DNA from: a virus
Virus record (IMG/VR): IMGVR_UViG_3300025897_000086
Span: 1-24,504 of that record
Reading direction: 5' to 3' (one strand)
DNA length: 24,504 bases
Shown: positions 1,991 through 23,306 of the stretch, in pieces
Layout: every line of letters begins with the position of its first letter
Position numbering within the stretch: position 1 is the first letter of the stretch
The notes under the pieces: generated by a model
What the model was told of the DNA's origin: nothing
Seen by the model: the letters and a program-made list of their open reading frames with translations, nothing else
Database searches by the model: none
Made by a program: the position numbers and the translations under genes

Positions 1991-2484
1991 TAAAACTATC
2001 AAAAATATTACTAGAAGAACCTGTTGCTCAAGCAGCTGCTAAAGCAATTGACGCAGCAATTAACAGTGTAGATGAAAATATGAGCTACGGTGACTTCGCT
2101 AAAGCTGTTTCTATAATTATACTTGATCAGTATGGTTCACATAATATTGATCCTTTTATGAAAGATCTTCATAATCATCTCGGCATTAACGAAGCATCAA
2201 AAAATAACTCATCTCTAAAAAGTATTGAAAGCATCAGTATATCATACACTGACTCAGGAAAATACTACGGCACATACGTTCATTATAAAAAAGAAGGATC
2301 TTCAGCCCCTATACTCAACCGCAGTAAACTTTGGATAGACGAAGCAAACAAATTGTTAAACATGCTTGAAATAAATGGAGAAATTGATATGAGGTATGAT
2401 GAAGAAAAACTAAGCAAGATAGTATCACAGCTTGAATCAAAAGGTATCCAAGCAGACTTTGACGATGCAATGGATGTAAGCTAA
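1987..2484 (+). CDS. tagged phage protein of unknown function (N-terminal capsid-targeting-like sequence)
   Basis: The 165-residue protein starts MIKLSKILLEEPVA. Residues L8-L9-E10 form an L-x-E site after a short Lys/Leu/Ile-rich segment, like the T4 capsid-targeting sequence cut by the gp21 protease. The body is a helical domain with DFAKAVSIIILDQYGSHNID (about 36-55), followed by a beta-rich segment (SISYTDSGKYYGTYVHYKK) and an amphipathic C-terminus. I recognise the YGSHN...PFM region as recurrent in uncultured T4-like phages, without a known function. It overlaps the upstream stop by four bases and the downstream ATG by one base, so translation is probably coupled. Delivery into the head is inferred from the tag. 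Confidence 0.6.
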   Translation: MIKLSKILLEEPVAQAAAKAIDAAINSVDENMSYGDFAKAVSIIILDQYGSHNIDPFMKDLHNHLGINEASKNNSSLKSIESISISYTDSGKYYGTYVHYKKEGSSAPILNRSKLWIDEANKLLNMLEINGEIDMRYDEEKLSKIVSQLESKGIQADFDDAMDVS

Positions 2485-2915
2485 TGAAACTTTTAAACAT
2501 ACTCCTTAACGAAGTTCTCGATGCTACTCCTGAGTTTAATCAGGAGGTTTCTAAGTTAAAAGACCAAGGAGCAACATTTATTGGCCAAGGAGACTATGGA
2601 AAAGTATTTAAACTTGGAGATAAAATAGTAAAAATCACATCAGACTCTGATGAAATACTTCACGTAAAACTCTTAAAAGGTAAGAAAACAAATAATTTTG
2701 TTTATATTTACGATATAAGGGTGATAAACGATCGCCTTGCTGTTATTACAATGGAAGACCTAGAAGAATTTAAAGGTGAAGTACCTCAAAAATTTATACA
2801 AGCTGCAGAACAAGAAGCAGAAAAATACGGGATAGACTCAGAGGAACTTGATTTTATTGGGGACAACATAATGATTGACCCTATAACAGGTAACTTAAAG
2901 ATGGTTGATGTATAA
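2484..2915 (+). CDS. minimal protein-kinase-like protein with capsid-targeting-like N-terminus
   Basis: The 143-residue protein starts MKLLNILLNEV, with an L8-N9-E10 site fitting prohead-protease cleavage. The rest reads as a pared-down protein kinase fold: glycine loop G34-Q-G-D-Y-G39-K-V, lysine K50 in KIVKIT (the VAIK position), hinge-like AVITMEDLEE (about 86-95), catalytic-loop-like D123-F-I-G-D-N128 with the D-x4-N spacing of HRDxxxxN, and D142 in KMVDV at the DFG position. The protein stops one residue after that Asp, so there is no activation loop or C-lobe helix set. It could phosphorylate a small molecule or a protein, or be a binding-only pseudokinase. It is translationally coupled to the previous tagged gene and is followed by the only intergenic gap in this part of the operon. 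Confidence 0.6.
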   Translation: MKLLNILLNEVLDATPEFNQEVSKLKDQGATFIGQGDYGKVFKLGDKIVKITSDSDEILHVKLLKGKKTNNFVYIYDIRVINDRLAVITMEDLEEFKGEVPQKFIQAAEQEAEKYGIDSEELDFIGDNIMIDPITGNLKMVDV

Positions 2916-3906: not shown

Positions 3907-4685
3907 TAAGACAAGGTACTAATATTTTAAAAGAGAATTCTAGAAAACGATTAGAATTTAATCCGGATTTAAAACAGATTAATTTTCTAGACAGAAGAGT
4001 CTATAAAAGATCGGACGGAGTATACTATCCATCCGTAACTACTATACTCCAGTATATGCCCAAAAATAAGTTCTTTGACAACTGGTTAAAGGATGTTGGG
4101 CATAACGCCGATCTAATTTTAATAAAAGCAGGTAAAGAAGGTACTCAAGTTCACGAAGCAGCTGAAAAACTAGTTTTAGGCGAAGAAGTTTCCTGGATGG
4201 ATGATTTCGGTAAGGCTAAGTATTCTCAAATAGTTTGGGAAATGATACTTAAGTTTTATGATTTTTGGACCACACATAAACCGGAACTAATTTCTACCGA
4301 ACAGTTTGTCTGGTCTGATGAACACAAATATGCAGGTACAGCCGACTTGGTTGTTAAGATGGATGGTGAAATATGGCTACTGGATTTAAAAACTTCAAAT
4401 GCTTTACACCGTTCTTACGATTTACAGCTTGCAGCATATGCTAAAGCAATGGTAGAAGTTAAAAATCAAAAAATAGACAGAACCGGCATTATATGGTTAA
4501 AAGCAAATACTAGATCAAATTCTAAAAAAGAAGGAGTTTACCAAGGAAAAGGATGGCAGATTAAAGTTACAGACAACATAGATTATAACTTTGATTTATT
4601 TCAAACTATATACAAGCTTTATAGACTGGAGAACCCAACAACCGAACCTATTTATAATAGTTACCCAACAACCTTAAAACTATGA
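3903..4685 (+). CDS. PD-(D/E)XK nuclease, RecB/Cas4-like exonuclease
   Basis: The 260-residue protein carries the signature residues of RecB-family nucleases in order: G80-T-Q-V-H84-E85 in a helix, AGTAD148 in the first core strand, LLD161-L-K163-T-S as the D-x-K metal and catalytic pair, and Q175-L-A-A-Y179 (the Q-x3-Y motif). Such enzymes cut single- or double-stranded DNA ends in recombination and repair or during host DNA degradation. No Fe-S cysteine cluster of the AddB/Cas4 type is visible. It overlaps the primase by four bases and the next gene by four bases (ATGA), so it probably belongs to the replication/recombination set. It has no capsid-targeting-like N-terminus, unlike the following gene. 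Confidence 0.8.
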   Translation: MIRQGTNILKENSRKRLEFNPDLKQINFLDRRVYKRSDGVYYPSVTTILQYMPKNKFFDNWLKDVGHNADLILIKAGKEGTQVHEAAEKLVLGEEVSWMDDFGKAKYSQIVWEMILKFYDFWTTHKPELISTEQFVWSDEHKYAGTADLVVKMDGEIWLLDLKTSNALHRSYDLQLAAYAKAMVEVKNQKIDRTGIIWLKANTRSNSKKEGVYQGKGWQIKVTDNIDYNFDLFQTIYKLYRLENPTTEPIYNSYPTTLKL

Positions 4686-5611
4686 AACTAATTAGAGTGC
4701 TTTTAGAAGCTACACAAAAACCAAAAGCTGTAATTATGGCAGGAGGTGCCGGTTCAGGTAAATCGTACCTTCTAAAACAATTAGATTTAGGAAGCCTTGA
4801 ACAATTTAACCCAGATAAATATATAGAAGATCCAAACAGCCCTGCTCATAATAATTTATCAGCAGCTACAGCTCAAACAAATAAAGATGTATTACAAGCT
4901 ATAGAGAATAAAACTAGCTTTGTTTGGGATACTACAGCATCTAATTCTTCAAAGGTTAAAGATATAATAAAAGCAGGTTACGATGTCTATATGGTGATGG
5001 TATACACACACCCTATGATATCATATATTTCAAATTTTCAATCTAGAGAAAGAAATGTACCAGCATCGGCTGTATTCTCAACTTGGCGTAACGTATACCA
5101 GCTTATCTCCGACTACTCCAAAATGACTGGTGGTAACTTATCTATATTTATTAACGATAGGGATGGGAAGTACGGTAAAGAAATAGAAGCTTTTAACACA
5201 GCAGCAAAAAACGGAGCATCTGGTATAGCAGACTACTTAGCTTCCTATAACAAACAGAACGACATTGGGGCATCTTCTTTTAGAAAACCTATTGAAATGT
5301 CTAAAGAAGATGAGCAAGAATTTAATAAGGCAGCCCAAGGCATAGATTACGATAAAGGTTCATACGGAGAGGACAGGGCTATAAAGAACGCTTTTATAAA
5401 GGCATACCAAAAGAACGGAGCAGGACCTGGGGCTGATAAGTTAAAAGACTCCATAAAAAAGTATAGAGAGAATAGGGATAAGCAGAATCAAAGAGAAAAA
5501 GAAGTTTTAGATAATATCGGAGAAATGTTGTTTTCTTCTGAGTTTCAAGAATTACTTAAACATTCTACACCCTCTGAGATTGATTCTGCAGTGCAAACAT
5601 TTCTTACATAA
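4682..5611 (+). CDS. zeta-toxin-like P-loop kinase with capsid-targeting-like N-terminus
   Basis: The 309-residue protein starts MKLIRVLLEATQ. L7-L8-E9 followed by A10 matches the T4 prohead-protease site, including the Ala. A P-loop kinase domain follows at once: Walker A G21-G-A-G-S-G-K27-S28, NPD45K in the position of the zeta-toxin Asp, and FVWD83-T-T-A-S-N resembling the ETT strand of zeta toxins and polynucleotide kinases. RNVPASAVFSTW (about 129-140) could hold the Arg residues of a lid. The C-terminal 100 residues are charged and helical, and contain D231-R-A-I-K-N-A237, close to a motif in the 553-aa head protein (381-387). Zeta toxins phosphorylate UDP-N-acetyl-sugars; related enzymes act on nucleic-acid ends or small metabolites. 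The substrate is unknown. Both junctions overlap neighbours. Confidence 0.65.
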   Translation: MKLIRVLLEATQKPKAVIMAGGAGSGKSYLLKQLDLGSLEQFNPDKYIEDPNSPAHNNLSAATAQTNKDVLQAIENKTSFVWDTTASNSSKVKDIIKAGYDVYMVMVYTHPMISYISNFQSRERNVPASAVFSTWRNVYQLISDYSKMTGGNLSIFINDRDGKYGKEIEAFNTAAKNGASGIADYLASYNKQNDIGASSFRKPIEMSKEDEQEFNKAAQGIDYDKGSYGEDRAIKNAFIKAYQKNGAGPGADKLKDSIKKYRENRDKQNQREKEVLDNIGEMLFSSEFQELLKHSTPSEIDSAVQTFLT

Positions 5612-6813
5612 TGGCCACAGTATTATATCCAGGAGCATTTAAACCACCCCACCGCGGTCACTTTGAACTTATAAAAAGTTTAATAAAAGGTAATCATAGA
5701 GGAGTAGTATATGATATAGATACTGCTCAAGATGCTTTAGGTAGAGTTCTAAAAGGTGAAAGAGATAAAGTAGAACCTATAAATAAAGTTATTATATTTT
5801 TAGGAGGAGGTGAACGAAACGGAATTACTAAAGAAGAATCAAAAACTGTTTGGGATATATACAATAAGTACCTATCTAAAGTAGAAATAATAATAGGAAG
5901 TAAAAATCCAATGTCTGCAGCAAAAGACTACGCTAAGGAACACCCTGATCAGAAATTTTATGCTGTAACAGGTGTTAGAGGAGAAGAAGATGCTGTAGAT
6001 TTGAGAAGAGTTTCTACTTTTAAAAATAGACCAAATGTAGACGGACTTGCTGTCCCGGCACAAGGTAATCAAATCAGAGCTACTGATTTTAGAAAAACTA
6101 TATTAACAGGAAGTTTAGATGCAGTTATAGATTTTTTTCCAAAAGAACTTTCGAGAGAAGAAATATTACATATTATGAAGATACTTAAACAGAGTATTAT
6201 TGCTGAAACGATGTTAAATAACATTAACAACGTAATGGATAATTTATTTGAAGTAGAAGAAGGTTCATCTGGAACAGCAATTGCTCCAAAAGGTACTATG
6301 AGATCCTTAGATAGAACTAATCTACAAGATACATATACAAAACTCAGAAGACTTCTTGGAGATCAAGAGTACCATGTAACATATAATACCGATCACATAG
6401 AAATCAGAGTCAAGCAAGAAGGTGATGCCCCTGGATTTGATTATACCTCATATATGGCGTCTATTTTAGAACACATGATTGATCAGGGAATGAAAATTAC
6501 ACCTTTACCTGAGATTAAAATTAAGAAAGATTTAGCAGAATCTTTAAACTTCTTTGGTAGAACTGCATACTATAGCCCGACATTAAAAGAAGTTGCCATT
6601 TACACAGAAGGCAGACACCCAAAAGATGTTATGAGATCATTTGCTCATGAGATGATACACCATATGCAAAATTTAGAGGGTAGATTAGTAGAATTCAATA
6701 CAACAAATACTAATGAAGATGAAAATCTACTTGAATTAGAAAAAGAAGCTTACCTAAAAGGTAATATAACTTTTCGTAATTGGGAAGATAAAATTAAAAA
6801 TGAAAATAAATAA
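5611..6813 (+). CDS. fusion of a HxGH nucleotidyltransferase and an HExxH metallopeptidase-like domain
   Basis: The N-terminal half (about 1-185) is a cytidylyltransferase-fold nucleotidyltransferase: PGAFKPPH14-R-G-H17 is the HxGH motif and QIRATDFR (about 150-157) is the ISSTxxR-like signature. This family includes NMN, FMN and pantetheine-phosphate adenylyltransferases; the substrate is unknown. The C-terminal half (about 230-400) has a zincin motif H346-E-M-I-H350-H in a helix, preceded by a beta segment, as in gluzincin-type peptidases. Between them lies M189-K-I-L-K-Q-S-I-I-A-E199-T, a near copy of a T4-type capsid-targeting sequence with an I-A-E cleavage site. This suggests that two genes fused and that the peptidase half could be freed in the prohead. 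The ATG overlaps the upstream TAA by one base. Confidence 0.7.
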   Translation: MATVLYPGAFKPPHRGHFELIKSLIKGNHRGVVYDIDTAQDALGRVLKGERDKVEPINKVIIFLGGGERNGITKEESKTVWDIYNKYLSKVEIIIGSKNPMSAAKDYAKEHPDQKFYAVTGVRGEEDAVDLRRVSTFKNRPNVDGLAVPAQGNQIRATDFRKTILTGSLDAVIDFFPKELSREEILHIMKILKQSIIAETMLNNINNVMDNLFEVEEGSSGTAIAPKGTMRSLDRTNLQDTYTKLRRLLGDQEYHVTYNTDHIEIRVKQEGDAPGFDYTSYMASILEHMIDQGMKITPLPEIKIKKDLAESLNFFGRTAYYSPTLKEVAIYTEGRHPKDVMRSFAHEMIHHMQNLEGRLVEFNTTNTNEDENLLELEKEAYLKGNITFRNWEDKIKNENK

Positions 6814-6818
6814 AGGTT

Positions 6819-7367
6819 ATGGGAAAAAGTATAAAAGACTTAATAGGAGAAGGCTACCCGCTCAAAACAGAAAAAAAATTACCACCGTATAAGATATACT
6901 GTGACATGGATGGAGTGTTAACAGATTTTGAATCAAGATTTGAACACTTTACTGGAATGTCTCCTAAAGACTATGAAGCTAAACACGGAAGAAGTCCTTT
7001 CTGGCAGTTAATAGATGTTACTGTAGGAATAAAATTCTGGTCAGAGATGGAATGGATGCCCAATGGTCTACAACTTTGGAGCTTTATACAATCTTATAAG
7101 CCTGATATTTTAACTTCTCCTTCTAGAGATAACAATTCAAGATTAGGTAAAAATTTATGGGTCAGTAAACACATAAGCCCTAACCCTAAAGTCATATTTT
7201 CTTACTCCGCAGACAAACATAGATATGCTAATGAGAACTCTATCTTAATAGATGATAAAGAATCTAATATACAAGAGTGGGCAGCCAAAGGCGGCATAGC
7301 AATACGTTGTGAGAATGGAAATGTAAATCATGTTATAGAAAAATTAAAAGTGTTAGGTTATGAATAA
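6819..7367 (+). CDS. HAD-superfamily phosphatase (5'-nucleotidase-like) with capsid-targeting-like N-terminus
   Basis: The 182-residue protein begins MGKSIKDLIGEGYPL, with an I9-G-E11 site fitting prohead-protease cleavage. A HAD hydrolase core follows: motif I YCD29-M-D31-G-V-L-T, motif II near ILTSPSR (Thr/Ser), and motif IV ILIDDKESN with the metal-binding Asp pair near residue 149. The size and the DMDGVLTDF start resemble phage and bacterial 5'(3')-deoxyribonucleotidases (NT5C type), which dephosphorylate nucleoside monophosphates. The substrate is inferred from resemblance only. ATG follows the preceding stop by 5 nt (AGGTT), one of the few starts here with a purine-rich lead. The gene overlaps the next one by eight bases. 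Confidence 0.7.
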   Translation: MGKSIKDLIGEGYPLKTEKKLPPYKIYCDMDGVLTDFESRFEHFTGMSPKDYEAKHGRSPFWQLIDVTVGIKFWSEMEWMPNGLQLWSFIQSYKPDILTSPSRDNNSRLGKNLWVSKHISPNPKVIFSYSADKHRYANENSILIDDKESNIQEWAAKGGIAIRCENGNVNHVIEKLKVLGYE

Positions 7368-8330: not shown

Positions 8331-8501
8331 ATGAAAAAATCACAACTTATACAACTAGTAAGAGAGATAATTAAAGAAAAGAAAAGACCGGGTCTCTGGG
8401 CTAATATAAATGCTAAAAAGAAAAGAGGAGAAAAACCATCGCACGGCAACTCTAATGCTCATAAAGATGCAGTAGCAGCAGGTAATGCTATGAAAAAATA
8501 A
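8331..8501 (+). CDS. small basic protein with capsid-targeting-like N-terminus (56 aa)
   Basis: I chose the ATG at 8331, two bases after the upstream stop. A longer in-frame start at 8265 would overlap the membrane protein by 64 bases and hide the N-terminal motif. The product starts MKKSQLIQLVREIIKE, nearly the same as the start of the gene at 17853, with I14-K-E16 as a candidate prohead-protease site. The rest (KKRPGLWANINAKKKRGEKP...) is highly basic and probably disordered or nucleic-acid binding. I recognise the RPGLWANI...KPSH pattern from other uncultured phages, without a known function. In T4, internal proteins IPI-IPIII are small, basic, tagged and packed with DNA, which is the best analogy. 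Its TAA overlaps the next ATG by one base. Confidence 0.7.
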   Translation: MKKSQLIQLVREIIKEKKRPGLWANINAKKKRGEKPSHGNSNAHKDAVAAGNAMKK

Positions 8502-11213: not shown

Positions 11214-11870
11214 ATGAAAAAAGCAGATCTTAAAAATATCATATTAGAAGCATATCAAGAAGTTCTACTAGAATCACTTATAACCGATTTATACGAGGAT
11301 GAGGAAGAAGAAACCTCTACTGAAGAAGAACCGGTACCAGAAGAAGAACCAGAACCAGATGCTCCTAAAGAGACTGTATTAGAAGATTCTACTGATATAA
11401 TTTTAAATAAATTCCCTACAGTAAAAGCTGCTATTATTAAACTACAAACAGAAGACTTTAAAGAGTTTATTACTACTGTGGATTGGGTATCACCCCGTCC
11501 TTCTTCTTTTAGAATCAACCTTAAGAACGGACAAGATTATATTTTAAAGTGGACAGGTACAGGCTTTGAAGCTCAGATACAAGGCAAAAGATATTACATA
11601 GATAAGATAACAGACTACCAGCAAGCTTTAGATAAATTAGCCGTACTCTATAAAGAAGGTCCAATGAAAGGTGCTGGTGAAGGAGATCCAGCGTCTGCTG
11701 AAGATATAGGAAGTGCCGATACAGGAGGAGGAGACTTTCCAGGAGAAGAAGGAGGAGGGTCAACCGACACTGGGTCTGAAACACCTGCCTCAGGAGGAGA
11801 AGAAGGTGGCGGAGAAGATCTATCAGCCGCACCAGTAGATTTCGAAGACGGGGAGTCACCAGAAGCATAA
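11214..11870 (+). CDS. acidic tagged protein with Gly/Glu-rich tail
   Basis: The 218-residue protein starts MKKADLKNIILEAYQEVLLE, with two candidate cleavage sites: I10-L-E12 before A13 and L18-L-E20 before S21. A strongly acidic linker (Glu/Pro repeats, about 28-52) is followed by a small folded domain (about 58-148, with SSFRINLKNGQDYILKWTG) and a long Gly/Glu/Ser-rich, probably disordered tail. The first seven residues, MKKADLK, recur inside the 553-aa head protein at residues 146-152. Acidic tagged proteins may line the prohead core like T4 gp67/gp68. The start is four bases after the preceding stop. The final TAA begins a (TAA)7 tract. I do not recognise the folded domain. Confidence 0.6.
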   Translation: MKKADLKNIILEAYQEVLLESLITDLYEDEEEETSTEEEPVPEEEPEPDAPKETVLEDSTDIILNKFPTVKAAIIKLQTEDFKEFITTVDWVSPRPSSFRINLKNGQDYILKWTGTGFEAQIQGKRYYIDKITDYQQALDKLAVLYKEGPMKGAGEGDPASAEDIGSADTGGGDFPGEEGGGSTDTGSETPASGGEEGGGEDLSAAPVDFEDGESPEA

Positions 11871-17001: not shown

Positions 17002-17856
17002 ATGAGAATAAAACATAATAAACTCAGAAACACCGGTCTGATATTTGAGCTTTTAGTTAAACAGATAGCAGCAGATACGTTGTCTAAAAATGATTCTCCT
17101 TCTGTTTCTATACTTAAAAAGTATTTCACCGGAGGATCAGCTATTGCCAAAGAGTTTAAACTTTATGAGTTTATTTTAAAAAGCAAGAATGTATCTCAGT
17201 CTAAAGCTGAGACGGTACTTTCTACTATAACTGAAATTTCTAGAAAACTAAATCAAAACGACTTAAAAGATCAGAAATACAAACTAGTGGCCGATCTTAA
17301 AGCTCATTATGATCTCAATGAATTTTTTAGTATACAAGTTAGAGAGTATAAAGCCCTGGCTGCTCTTTACTGTTTATTGGAAGCTCAAAATAATTCTGAT
17401 TTAGTAGATCCAAACTCTTTAATAGAGAATAAAACTACTATATTAGAACACCTTACTTCTAACTCTCAGAACGAACAAGATGTAAAAGATACTTTAATAG
17501 AGGAGTATTCAAAATACGACAAAGATTTAAGACTTCTTACTTTTAAAATACTATTAGAGAAGTTTAATGACAAATATAAGGATCTACTTCCTGAGCAAAA
17601 AAATATACTAAGAGAGTTTATCACATCAGTTAACTCTAACGCAAGACTTAGAAACATAGTTAACGAGGAATTAACAAAAATAACAAAAGATGTATTAGAT
17701 CTAACTCCAAAGGTAAAAGACCAAGTAGTTAAGATTAAATTAAATGAAATTGCTAAATCAATTAACCCAGTATCGAACAAAGAAAAGATATCTGATTCTC
17801 ATTTAATCAATCTAATGCAATACTACGATCTAGTTAATGAATTGAGATCACTATGA
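17002..17856 (+). CDS. helical head-region protein of unknown function between portal and protease (284 aa)
   Basis: The protein is almost entirely helical and highly charged. It starts MRIKHNKLRNTGLIFELLVKQ, a conserved-looking opening that I recall from other uncultured T4-like phages, and has no Cys cluster, membrane segment or catalytic motif. EYKALAALYCLLEAQNN (about 114-130) and KILLEKFNDKYKDLLPEQK (about 176-194) are its best-defined segments. In T4 the corresponding place, after gene 20, holds the core genes 67 and 68, so an assembly role for the prohead or its core is suggested by position. It has no N-terminal tag. Its stop overlaps the next ATG by four bases. Function unknown. Confidence 0.6.
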   Translation: MRIKHNKLRNTGLIFELLVKQIAADTLSKNDSPSVSILKKYFTGGSAIAKEFKLYEFILKSKNVSQSKAETVLSTITEISRKLNQNDLKDQKYKLVADLKAHYDLNEFFSIQVREYKALAALYCLLEAQNNSDLVDPNSLIENKTTILEHLTSNSQNEQDVKDTLIEEYSKYDKDLRLLTFKILLEKFNDKYKDLLPEQKNILREFITSVNSNARLRNIVNEELTKITKDVLDLTPKVKDQVVKIKLNEIAKSINPVSNKEKISDSHLINLMQYYDLVNELRSL

Positions 17857-18095
17857 AGAAATCTGAATTAATCAGTCTTGTAAAAGAAATAATAAAAGAA
17901 GTACAAGCCCTACGTGAAGTTAATGCTACCAATGCAGGAGGTGCATCATTTACTCCAGGTACCGGAGCTCAGTATGCAACTCCAAAAGCATTTGGTAAAG
18001 ACAGTAGAGCAATAAAGACTTTAAAAAAAGATGGATATAAAGTAGTTTCTAGACCAAAAAGACCATCACATACTAAAGCATTTGATTATTTATAA
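17853..18095 (+). CDS. small tagged head protein, positional counterpart of T4 gp67/gp68
   Basis: The 80-residue protein starts MKKSELISLVKEIIKEVQAL, with two candidate prohead-protease sites: I14-K-E16 and L20-R-E22. After the second site comes VNATNAGGASFTPGTGAQYA. This is strikingly like the sequence just after the capsid protein's own predicted cleavage site (GGTFTAGAGEQWA). The C-terminal half is basic (AIKTLKKDGYKVVSRPKRPS). It lies between portal and protease, where T4 has the prohead core proteins gp67 (80 residues) and gp68. Size and place fit a minor core or internal protein; sequence homology to gp67 is not visible to me. It overlaps the previous gene by four bases. Confidence 0.65.
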   Translation: MKKSELISLVKEIIKEVQALREVNATNAGGASFTPGTGAQYATPKAFGKDSRAIKTLKKDGYKVVSRPKRPSHTKAFDYL

Positions 18096-19762: not shown

Positions 19763-20341
19763 ATGGCCCAGCTATTAGTAGACGTAACACCATTCAAATC
19801 TGTTCTTCGAGAATCCAAAACTAAACCCGGAGTATTTGAAGTAGAAGGTGTAATGCAGAGAGCAAAAGCTCAAAATCAGAATGGTAGAGTCTATGCTAGA
19901 ACAATTTTAGAAAGAGAATCTAAAAAGTATACAGAAGATTTTGTCAAAAACGGTAATGCATTTGGAGAATTGGATCACCCTGAGTCTCCCGTTGTCTCCT
20001 TAAAGAACGCTTCACATGTAGTAAAAGAGCTATGGTGGGATGGAGACGACCTTATGGGACGTGTAGAACTACTCAATACACCCTCAGGCAATATTGTAAA
20101 AGAGATAATTAAAGCTGGACATACAATCGGCATATCATCTAGAGGTACTGGCTCAGTCCAGCAATCAAATGAAGGCACTTTAGAAGTGCAGCCTGATTTC
20201 GAATTAGTATGTTGGGATTTTGTATCTAATCCATCTACACATGGAGCATTTATGAACCCAGTATCATTAAATGAGGCAAAAGCTAAAACATCTAAGTATA
20301 CTAATTTAGATTTAATCATAAACGATATATTAAGAACCTAA
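19763..20341 (+). CDS. gp21: prohead maturation serine protease
   Basis: The 192-residue protein matches the T4 gp21/herpes-like prohead protease fold. H72 lies in FGELDHP and S125/S126 in TIGISSRG, the conserved catalytic His and Ser motifs; NGRVYAR (40-46) and ELLNTPSGNIVKEIIKAG precede them. It is slightly shorter than T4 gp21 (212). The enzyme acts inside the prohead, digests the scaffold and core, and trims capsid and internal proteins after (L/I)-x-E. Its own N-terminus has L15-R-E17 before S18, a likely self-processing site. Position between core-like genes and scaffold is as in T4. A terminator-like hairpin follows 42 nt after the stop. Many tagged proteins in this window carry sites it could cut. 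Confidence 0.92.
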   Translation: MAQLLVDVTPFKSVLRESKTKPGVFEVEGVMQRAKAQNQNGRVYARTILERESKKYTEDFVKNGNAFGELDHPESPVVSLKNASHVVKELWWDGDDLMGRVELLNTPSGNIVKEIIKAGHTIGISSRGTGSVQQSNEGTLEVQPDFELVCWDFVSNPSTHGAFMNPVSLNEAKAKTSKYTNLDLIINDILRT

Positions 20342-21728: not shown

Positions 21729-23306
21729 ATGGAAATAACTTCATTATTAGAAAGCTCAAACGGATACAAAAGCCTACAGGCTGATGCTACTCGTTTAGCT
21801 ACTAAGTGGTCTGCTTCCGGTCTTTTAGAAGGACTTAAGGAGAAGGAGGCTAACAACATGGCAATGATGCTTGAAAATCAAGCAAAGCAAATTGTTGCTG
21901 AAGCTAACACAACTGGAACAGGTGGTACTTTTACCGCTGGAGCTGGTGAGCAGTGGGCTGGTGTTGCTTTACCATTAGTACGTAAAGTATTCGCTCAAAT
22001 CTCTGCAAAAGATTTCGTTTCTGTTCAACCAATGAACTTACCTTCAGGGCTAGTATTCTATCTTGATTTCAAGTACGGTACTGCTCAAACTGGACAAGCT
22101 GACGGTGCTAACATGTACGGAAATGTATCTACTGCTAACTCTAAGATAGGAGTTGACACTGATGTATCAGGTGGTCTATATGGCGCCGGAAAATTCGGAT
22201 ACTCTATCAACGAAGCTTCAGTTAACGTTACCGCTACAAAAGCTGCTGCTGATTCTGGATCTGTAAATCACGAAGTAGGAGTTGACATCGCTACATTTAA
22301 CAAAGTATCTGTTGCTCTATCTGGTCTAACAGGATATGATGCTGATGGCGTTCGTGCTTTCGGTCTTGTTTCTGCATCCGTTGCTATTCCAGTACATGCA
22401 AATTATACTAAGATTGTTGGTACAAACCTTCAGTTTGTAACTAATGCTGACGCAATTGCTGGAAGTCACACTGTTTCTGTTAAGTATCACAAAGCACCTG
22501 CTGACAATTCTAGAGGAGATTTTGAAGCTTCTGGAGCTGCCGCTGTTGATTCATCGATTACTATACCAGAAATCGACGTACAACTTGCTTCTGAATCCAT
22601 TGTTGCGAAAACACGTAAATTGAAAGCGCAATGGACACCAGAATTTGCACAAGATTTGAATGCTTATCATTCAATCGATGCAGAAGCTGAATTGACTTCA
22701 TTGTTGTCTGAATATATCTCTATGGAGATTGATCTTGAGATCCTTGACATGTTGATGAACGGTGCTGCTACTACAGAGCATTGGTCTGCTGAGAATAACA
22801 AAATTTGGGATGGTACTAATTGGACTACCTCAACTTCTGATTTCTACAACACACAAGGTCAGTGGTTCCAAACTTTAGGTACGAAAGTACAGAAGGTATC
22901 TAACAAAATTCACCAGAAAACTCTTAGAGGAGGTGCTAATTTCTTAGTATGTTCTCCAACAGTTGCTACAGTCCTTGAATCTATTCCAGGATATGCAGCA
23001 TCTACTGATGGTGATTCAATGGAATTCTCAATGGGTGTACAGAAAATCGGTAGCTTAGCTAACAGATTCAAAGTATACAAGAATCCATATATGACTGAAA
23101 ACGTTGTTCTTTTAGGATACAGAGGAGGTCAGTTCTTGGAAGCTGGTGCGGTTTATGCCCCATATATTCCTTTGATGATGACTCCATTAGTATACGATCC
23201 TGAAACCTTCACTCCAAGAAAAGGTTTAATGACTCGTTATGCTAAGAAGATGATCCGTCCTGAATTTTACGGTAAGATCTTTATTAGTGATATTACCACT
23301 ATCTAA
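21729..23306 (+). CDS. gp23: major capsid protein
   Basis: The 525-residue HK97-fold protein is T4 gp23-like. An N-terminal delta domain (about 1-58) ends at V56-A-E58 before A59, a good match in place to T4 gp23 cleavage at E65. Then come FVSVQPMNLPSGLVFYLDF (near 95) and KLKAQWTPEFAQDLNAYHSID...EAELTSLLSEYISMEIDLEIL (about 297-340), the latter nearly collinear with T4. The C-terminus has GYRGGQFLEAGAVYAPYIPLM and PRKGLMTRYAKKMIRP, also typical. A beta-rich, Thr/Ala/Val-rich insertion at about 140-280 is consistent with a surface insertion domain. Codons favour GGT, GCT and ACT more than in the neighbouring genes, as in a highly expressed gene. A strong terminator follows. Confidence 0.95.
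   Translation: MEITSLLESSNGYKSLQADATRLATKWSASGLLEGLKEKEANNMAMMLENQAKQIVAEANTTGTGGTFTAGAGEQWAGVALPLVRKVFAQISAKDFVSVQPMNLPSGLVFYLDFKYGTAQTGQADGANMYGNVSTANSKIGVDTDVSGGLYGAGKFGYSINEASVNVTATKAAADSGSVNHEVGVDIATFNKVSVALSGLTGYDADGVRAFGLVSASVAIPVHANYTKIVGTNLQFVTNADAIAGSHTVSVKYHKAPADNSRGDFEASGAAAVDSSITIPEIDVQLASESIVAKTRKLKAQWTPEFAQDLNAYHSIDAEAELTSLLSEYISMEIDLEILDMLMNGAATTEHWSAENNKIWDGTNWTTSTSDFYNTQGQWFQTLGTKVQKVSNKIHQKTLRGGANFLVCSPTVATVLESIPGYAASTDGDSMEFSMGVQKIGSLANRFKVYKNPYMTENVVLLGYRGGQFLEAGAVYAPYIPLMMTPLVYDPETFTPRKGLMTRYAKKMIRPEFYGKIFISDITTI

Follow-up and report, generated by a model that had tools for sequence, protein, structure and literature searches.

A compact T7-type kinase carrying a T4-type capsid tag as candidate head cargo of a T4-like marine phage

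A T4-like marine phage carries a 143-residue gene product that appears, from its predicted fold, its residues and its homology, to be a protein kinase without a C-lobe behind a capsid-targeting-type tag. We favour, with a probability of roughly 0.6, the reading in which a T4-like propeptide brings this compact T7-type kinase into the head, from which it is ejected alongside the DNA to phosphorylate proteins of the host or of its defences ahead of phage gene expression. The window, by which we mean the whole 24,504-nucleotide stretch of DNA that was analysed (positions 1-24,504 of IMG/VR record IMGVR_UViG_3300025897_000086), includes genes for a terminase, a portal protein, a gp21-type prohead protease and a gp23-type capsid protein. 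The closest isolate with a relative of the mini-kinase is Flavobacterium phage immuto (41% identity), so the host likely belongs to the Bacteroidetes. The mini-kinase gene sits between a GIY-YIG gene and a primase, with head genes in the same block, and its start overlaps the upstream ORF in an ATGA-type junction. The features on which the analysis rests are as follows, with the basis of each in brackets.

2484-2915, + strand: tagged mini-kinase ORF of 143 aa, ATG to TAA (relatives, fold)
2484-2513, + strand: capsid-targeting-type tag MKLLNILLNE, predicted cleavage after E10 (L8-N9-E10) (low pLDDT, relatives, T4 motif)
2583-2600, + strand: glycine-rich loop G34-Q-G-D-Y-G39, between beta1 and beta2 (sequence, model, alignment)
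2631-2633, + strand: K50, the beta3 lysine, 71/71 (model, T7-type alignment, family alignment)
2652-2654, + strand: E57 (71/71), a helix C residue that may pair with K50 (model, family alignment)
2850-2867, + strand: catalytic loop D123-FIGD-N128, with D123 in 62/71 and N128 in 71/71 (alignments, tree)
2907-2912, + strand: D142-V143, the DFG-position Asp (71/71) and the C-terminus (alignments)
19763-20341, + strand: prohead protease of the T4 gp21 type, presumed tag-removing enzyme (phrog_207, 2.5e-53)
21729-23306, + strand: major capsid protein of the gp23 type, candidate propeptide end between QIVAE58 and ANTTG (profile match; sequence)

An AlphaFold run on a 22-row family alignment yielded a model of the mini-kinase with a pLDDT of 88.7 and a pTM of 0.81, in which the elements follow the order beta1-beta2-beta3-alphaC-beta4-beta5-alphaE-catalytic loop-beta7-beta8; residues 1-10 were the only segment with a pLDDT below 50. 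Every one of the 50 PDB matches listed by Foldseek was a protein kinase or a pseudokinase (probability 1.00, best E 1.4e-5), and T7-type phage kinases were among the best matches to viral models (E about 2e-7). The kinase fold anticipated by the original prediction was thus recovered, N-lobe included, and the residues it had named, G34-G39, K50, D123-x4-N128 and D142, are all present in the 143-aa product in the order and spacing described. Aminoglycoside phosphotransferases, considered as another candidate, were not among the 50 matches listed in either the PDB or the viral fold search. The window protein therefore shows the N-lobe fold, glycine loop, beta3 Lys and alphaC Glu of protein kinases, together with the D-x4-N catalytic loop (D123, N128) and the DFG-position Asp (D142). 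A complete C-lobe, with its activation segment and helices F to I, is absent, the chain ending at D142-V143 as in all complete relatives; the protein has almost no C-lobe or substrate-binding surface and is smaller than the T7 kinase domain. Pfam Pkinase was matched weakly by 23 of 42 family members (best 0.049). The window protein alone had no kinase match in Pfam, PHROG or NCBIfam, where weak matches to JmjN and others were judged to be chance, and a Pfam Pkinase search of the window's own record found nothing. Phmmer and profile searches of PDB sequences gave only marginal matches (SteC 0.1-0.3, twitchin 0.095), which served as hints for mapping the landmarks. Fold, residues and homology together support a protein kinase, for which phosphotransfer is predicted.

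The relationship to the gp0.7-type kinases of T7 was apparent in profile comparisons. The T7 kinase family phrog_15752 was matched by 31 of 42 members (best 1.7e-4), and hhalign of the family against a profile of six T7-type kinases gave an E of 3.5e-7 over residues 11-142, that is, from directly after the tag. Fifteen column shuffles gave E values of at least 0.065 and scores of 9-19, against a real score of 51.3, and removal of the tag columns left an E of 2e-6. The alignment paired K50, D123, N128 and D142 with T7 K93, D195, N200 and D213 and was colinear at every landmark. The kinase chain of Caulobacter phage Cd1 likewise ends soon past the DFG-position Asp and also lacks the shutoff domain. 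Since the homology is colinear throughout and Cd1 ends alike, the short C-terminus belongs to a T7-type plan and is not a freak truncation; an ending at the DFG-position Asp, which had been put forward as a peculiarity of this protein, is not unique to it, as T7-type phage kinases drop the C-lobe at the same point. These comparisons support a stand-alone, C-lobe-less kinase that is homologous to the T7 gp0.7 kinase domain. With T7 gp0.7 and JSS1_004 (phrog_15752) the mini-kinase shares the glycine loop, beta3 Lys, D-x4-N loop, DFG-position Asp and loss of the C-lobe at that point. Unlike the mini-kinase, however, T7-type kinases are early genes and have no capsid tag, and most carry a C-terminal host-shutoff domain and a longer stretch ahead of the catalytic loop. 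The host-transcription shutoff domain is absent from the window protein, which has no residues past V143, and its gene does not occupy the T7-type early position next to a phage RNA polymerase. T7 gp0.7 phosphorylates the RNA polymerase beta' subunit (PMC2939025). In vitro, the kinase domain of JSS1_004 by itself phosphorylates DndFGH and thereby inhibits it; in vivo that domain alone is insufficient against DndFGH, and the full protein also hits other defences (PMC12345140).

Relatives of the mini-kinase were gathered by scanning viral contigs, and 71 distinct sequences, which come from T4-like flavophage-type contigs, were aligned; no cellular relatives were found in genome contigs with the sequence patterns used. 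The sole invariant positions were G36, G39, K50, T52, D54, E57, L85, N128, M130 and D142. Five of seven glycine-loop and catalytic landmarks, a set that includes G36 in addition to the residues named earlier, fall among these 10 of 143 positions (hypergeometric p about 1e-5). In the tested pairs that bear D123, dN/dS was 0.04-0.10, and every complete relative stops one residue after the DFG-position Asp. The invariance of these landmarks, the low dN/dS, the shared stop and the conserved tag indicated that the named kinase residues are more than a chance pattern. The same shared stop and low dN/dS led us to reject the reading that this is a full kinase cut short by truncation or a frameshift. 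Eight of the 71 relatives have D or S instead of G34. Of the three residues whose conservation had been proposed as decisive, K50 and D142 held throughout, whereas D123 is replaced by S, L or R in one clade of nine sequences (100/100 support in the tree). The sister of this clade, L195, retains D at position 123, so the loss is derived, and it occurred once. The clade holds the only cultured branch, immuto and its relatives, and is also under purifying selection (dN/dS 0.11-0.22). The immuto-like sequences (L137-L166) have a GPGG insert ahead of the loop and retain the other kinase residues; they are a candidate natural pseudokinase.

The N-terminal tag of the mini-kinase has the general form MKLxxI(L/I)LxE, and a motif [LIVMF]xE ends at residue 9 or 10 in all 51 of the relatives first collected. 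The first 10 residues of T4 IPIII are enough to target it, and L/I-X-E is the motif behind which gp21 cleaves (PMC9026906). MKLLNILLNE agrees with the capsid-targeting sequence (CTS) of IPIII in length and in its L/I-X-E ending, and the mark of a T4-type CTS, a 10-19-residue N-terminal propeptide that ends in L/I-X-E and is common to unrelated proteins, is present here. The candidate site of the gp23-type capsid protein, between QIVAE and A, matches the tag pattern with V for L/I. The cleavage motif is short. Five orthologs at the same locus, a clade of 158-aa proteins, lack the tag stretch and start near residue 15; two of their phages, where the gene is visible, carry the tag on the zeta-like protein. 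Further window genes that begin with a tag or a tag-like start include the following.

1987-2484, + strand: upstream overlapping ORF of 165 aa, tag MIKLSKILLE, variable cargo-type neighbour (tag, relatives, model)
4682-5611, + strand: zeta-toxin-like P-loop protein, tag MKLIRVLLE, second candidate head cargo (Pfam 9e-12)
6819-7367, + strand: 5'-3' deoxyribonucleotidase, tag-like start MGKSIKDLIGE (PHROG homology begins at residue 23)

By a simple rule, 11 of 29 window genes were tagged, against 4% expected from internal windows (p 7e-9). In immuto, 13 of 76 genes in the virion half were tagged (2.4% expected), and the other half showed no clear enrichment (9 of 139, 5.3% expected). The slot upstream of the mini-kinase gene is tagged in 36 of 38 relatives, although it is filled by several unrelated protein families, one of which has lost its middle and retained the tag and the C-terminal domain. 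Because the tag is common to unrelated neighbours and absent from same-locus orthologs whose phages tag other proteins, it behaves as a detachable module. The tag ending at E10 thus proved to be a genuine modular capsid-type tag, as had been proposed, given its presence in 51/51 relatives and shared neighbours and its enrichment. The untagged 158-aa clade indicates that head delivery is not needed everywhere for the role of the family.

Upstream of the kinase gene in L039-L117, small tagged ORFs of unrelated families form a rapidly changing cassette, in which recombination swaps domains while the tag in front stays the same; in L046 two families are joined. Since different families fill this slot in relatives, the idea that the mini-kinase and the upstream ORF form a conserved two-gene unit was rejected. 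The model of the upstream 165-aa protein (pLDDT 69.8) was too weak for a fold search. The zeta-like protein is tagged in relatives also (MKLTEALLSE, MKLIEALLQE), and from its sequence it is a candidate second injected enzyme.

We infer the following course for the mini-kinase, from late expression through packaging, tag cleavage and ejection to catalysis on its targets. The protein would be made late, together with the head genes, and its 10-residue tag would bind the prohead core. The gp21-type protease would then cleave after E10, and a 133-aa kinase would be trapped with the DNA. On infection it would leave the head along with the genome and could, like T7-type kinases, phosphorylate host proteins such as RNA polymerase, translation factors or proteins of anti-phage defence; such phosphorylation would precede expression of any phage gene. 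More tentatively, a promiscuous T7-type kinase may have been turned into head cargo: T4-like phages that infect Bacteroidetes would then deliver a finished 133-aa kinase, smaller than the other kinases known to us, that phosphorylates and disarms host defences or RNA polymerase before phage expression, as one member of an exchangeable set of tagged enzymes that includes the zeta-like P-loop protein and the nucleotidase. The literature searched held nothing usable on virion proteomics of immuto or of the tagged-phage group. We counted in favour of a packaged kinase the fold, the T7 homology, the conserved ATP/Mg residues, the purifying selection, the modular tag, the presence of a gp21-type protease and a gp23-type capsid protein, and the in vitro activity of the lone JSS1_004 kinase domain. 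Against it we counted the loss of D123 in the cultured branch, the lack of a kinase match from the window protein alone, the small substrate surface, the in vivo insufficiency of the JSS1 domain, the untagged clade and the short cleavage motif.

Because a clade without D123 exists, the main rival is a packaged pseudokinase that binds ATP/Mg yet carries out no phosphotransfer and works instead by binding, as a decoy, or by allosteric partnership with another injected protein or a host protein. The substitution of D123 throughout that clade under purifying selection, with K50, E57, N128 and D142 invariant, and the near absence in the model of a C-lobe for substrates would suit such a protein. 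We nevertheless regard it as unlikely for the window protein, as D123 is kept, in LDIRPDN or LDFIGDN loops, in 62/71 sequences including this one, its absence elsewhere goes back to one derived loss, and activity is known for a T7-type kinase domain of the same plan.

Two other explanations concern the tag rather than catalysis. The tag may bring the kinase into the prohead as an assembly or core component that acts there, for example by phosphorylating core or portal proteins, and is not injected. The tag would work during assembly, and T4 core proteins bear similar sites (PMC9026906), but the gene belongs to the variable cassette that the small tagged ORFs form and does not lie among the conserved head genes, and one clade manages without the tag, so that we consider this role improbable. 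It also seems very improbable that the N-terminus is a recurring amphipathic start, for membrane or complex binding, on an ordinary intracellular phage enzyme. The shortness of the motif, the untagged orthologs and the inferential basis of packaging speak for an amphipathic start; a capsid tag is favoured by the strong tag enrichment, which in the immuto genome is limited to the virion half, by a length and an L/I-X-E end like those of the T4 CTS, and by the gp21-type protease encoded in the same genome.

The internal cargo of T4 (IPI-III and Alt) is alike in having a short N-terminal propeptide that ends in L/I-X-E, a gp21-type protease and variable cargo behind a common tag, but it includes no kinase; Alt acts as an ADP-ribosyltransferase, and its propeptide is 7 residues long. 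The minimal effector kinases OspG and HopBF1 are larger, at about 180-200 aa, and keep more of the C-lobe. Their kinase fold is reduced too, and they reach the inside of a target cell by delivery (PMC9950578), although bacteria secrete them into eukaryotes. Kinases of polyvalent proteins, which lack a C-lobe and occur in stand-alone versions too, were described from (pro)phages of Bacteroidetes and Verrucomicrobia-Chlamydia, and polyvalent proteins are likely packaged when phage-encoded (Iyer et al. 2017, PMC5512222). They resemble the mini-kinase in losing the whole C-terminal subdomain, keeping active-site residues, occurring in Bacteroidetes phages and being predicted to be packaged. Their diagnostics are a Glu just before strand 2, a Gln in the last N-lobe strand and an insert between the catalytic His and Asp (PMC5512222), whereas all three are missing from the window protein, which reads Q35-G-D-Y, carries T89 and contains no His ahead of D123. 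Among relatives E35 is confined to the immuto clade and Q89 to the MRLSHV/MKLSRV-type group, and the Kinase-PolyVal Pfam was not among the matches listed for the window protein or family members. Targeting also differs, being assigned here to a T4-type tag on a small protein. The novelty claimed for a head-packaged kinase stands in part: the literature searched (open PMC papers) contained no T7-type kinase fronted by a head tag of the T4 type, but the novelty is smaller than suggested, because packaged C-lobe-less phage kinases had already been predicted in print (PMC5512222).

T7 can disarm host proteins only once its kinase has been transcribed and translated, whereas a kinase delivered from the head would be at work within the first seconds, the time at which restriction and other defences strike. 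The family is a very small natural kinase, and its clades with and without the catalytic Asp allow comparison of what a minimal kinase needs; tagged and untagged orthologs at the same locus likewise offer a comparison for what head delivery adds. The tag is also a simple sequence rule for finding further injected enzymes of marine T4-like phages.

Several minor observations concern other starts in the window. The immuto ortholog of the deoxyribonucleotidase at 6819-7367 starts MKKVMGNLADLLLE. The protein at 799-1587 starts MIKLKDVIGYPSLKYHL, with no clear tag, and a protein of matching position and GYW end (L156:471-1259) begins MIKLLNLLVETTPGLNYHL with a tag, possibly reflecting tag gain or erosion. 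A second tag style, MKKxxLxxLVKE/IILE, occurs at 8331-8501, 11214-11870 and 17853-18095 and in immuto too (MKKSELVKLIKE, MKKSQLRQIIKE). The protein at 5611-6813 joins a nucleotidyltransferase-like start (YPGAFKPPHRGH) to a weak metallopeptidase-like match (SFAHEMIHHMQN), and its immuto counterpart is longer, at 907 aa.
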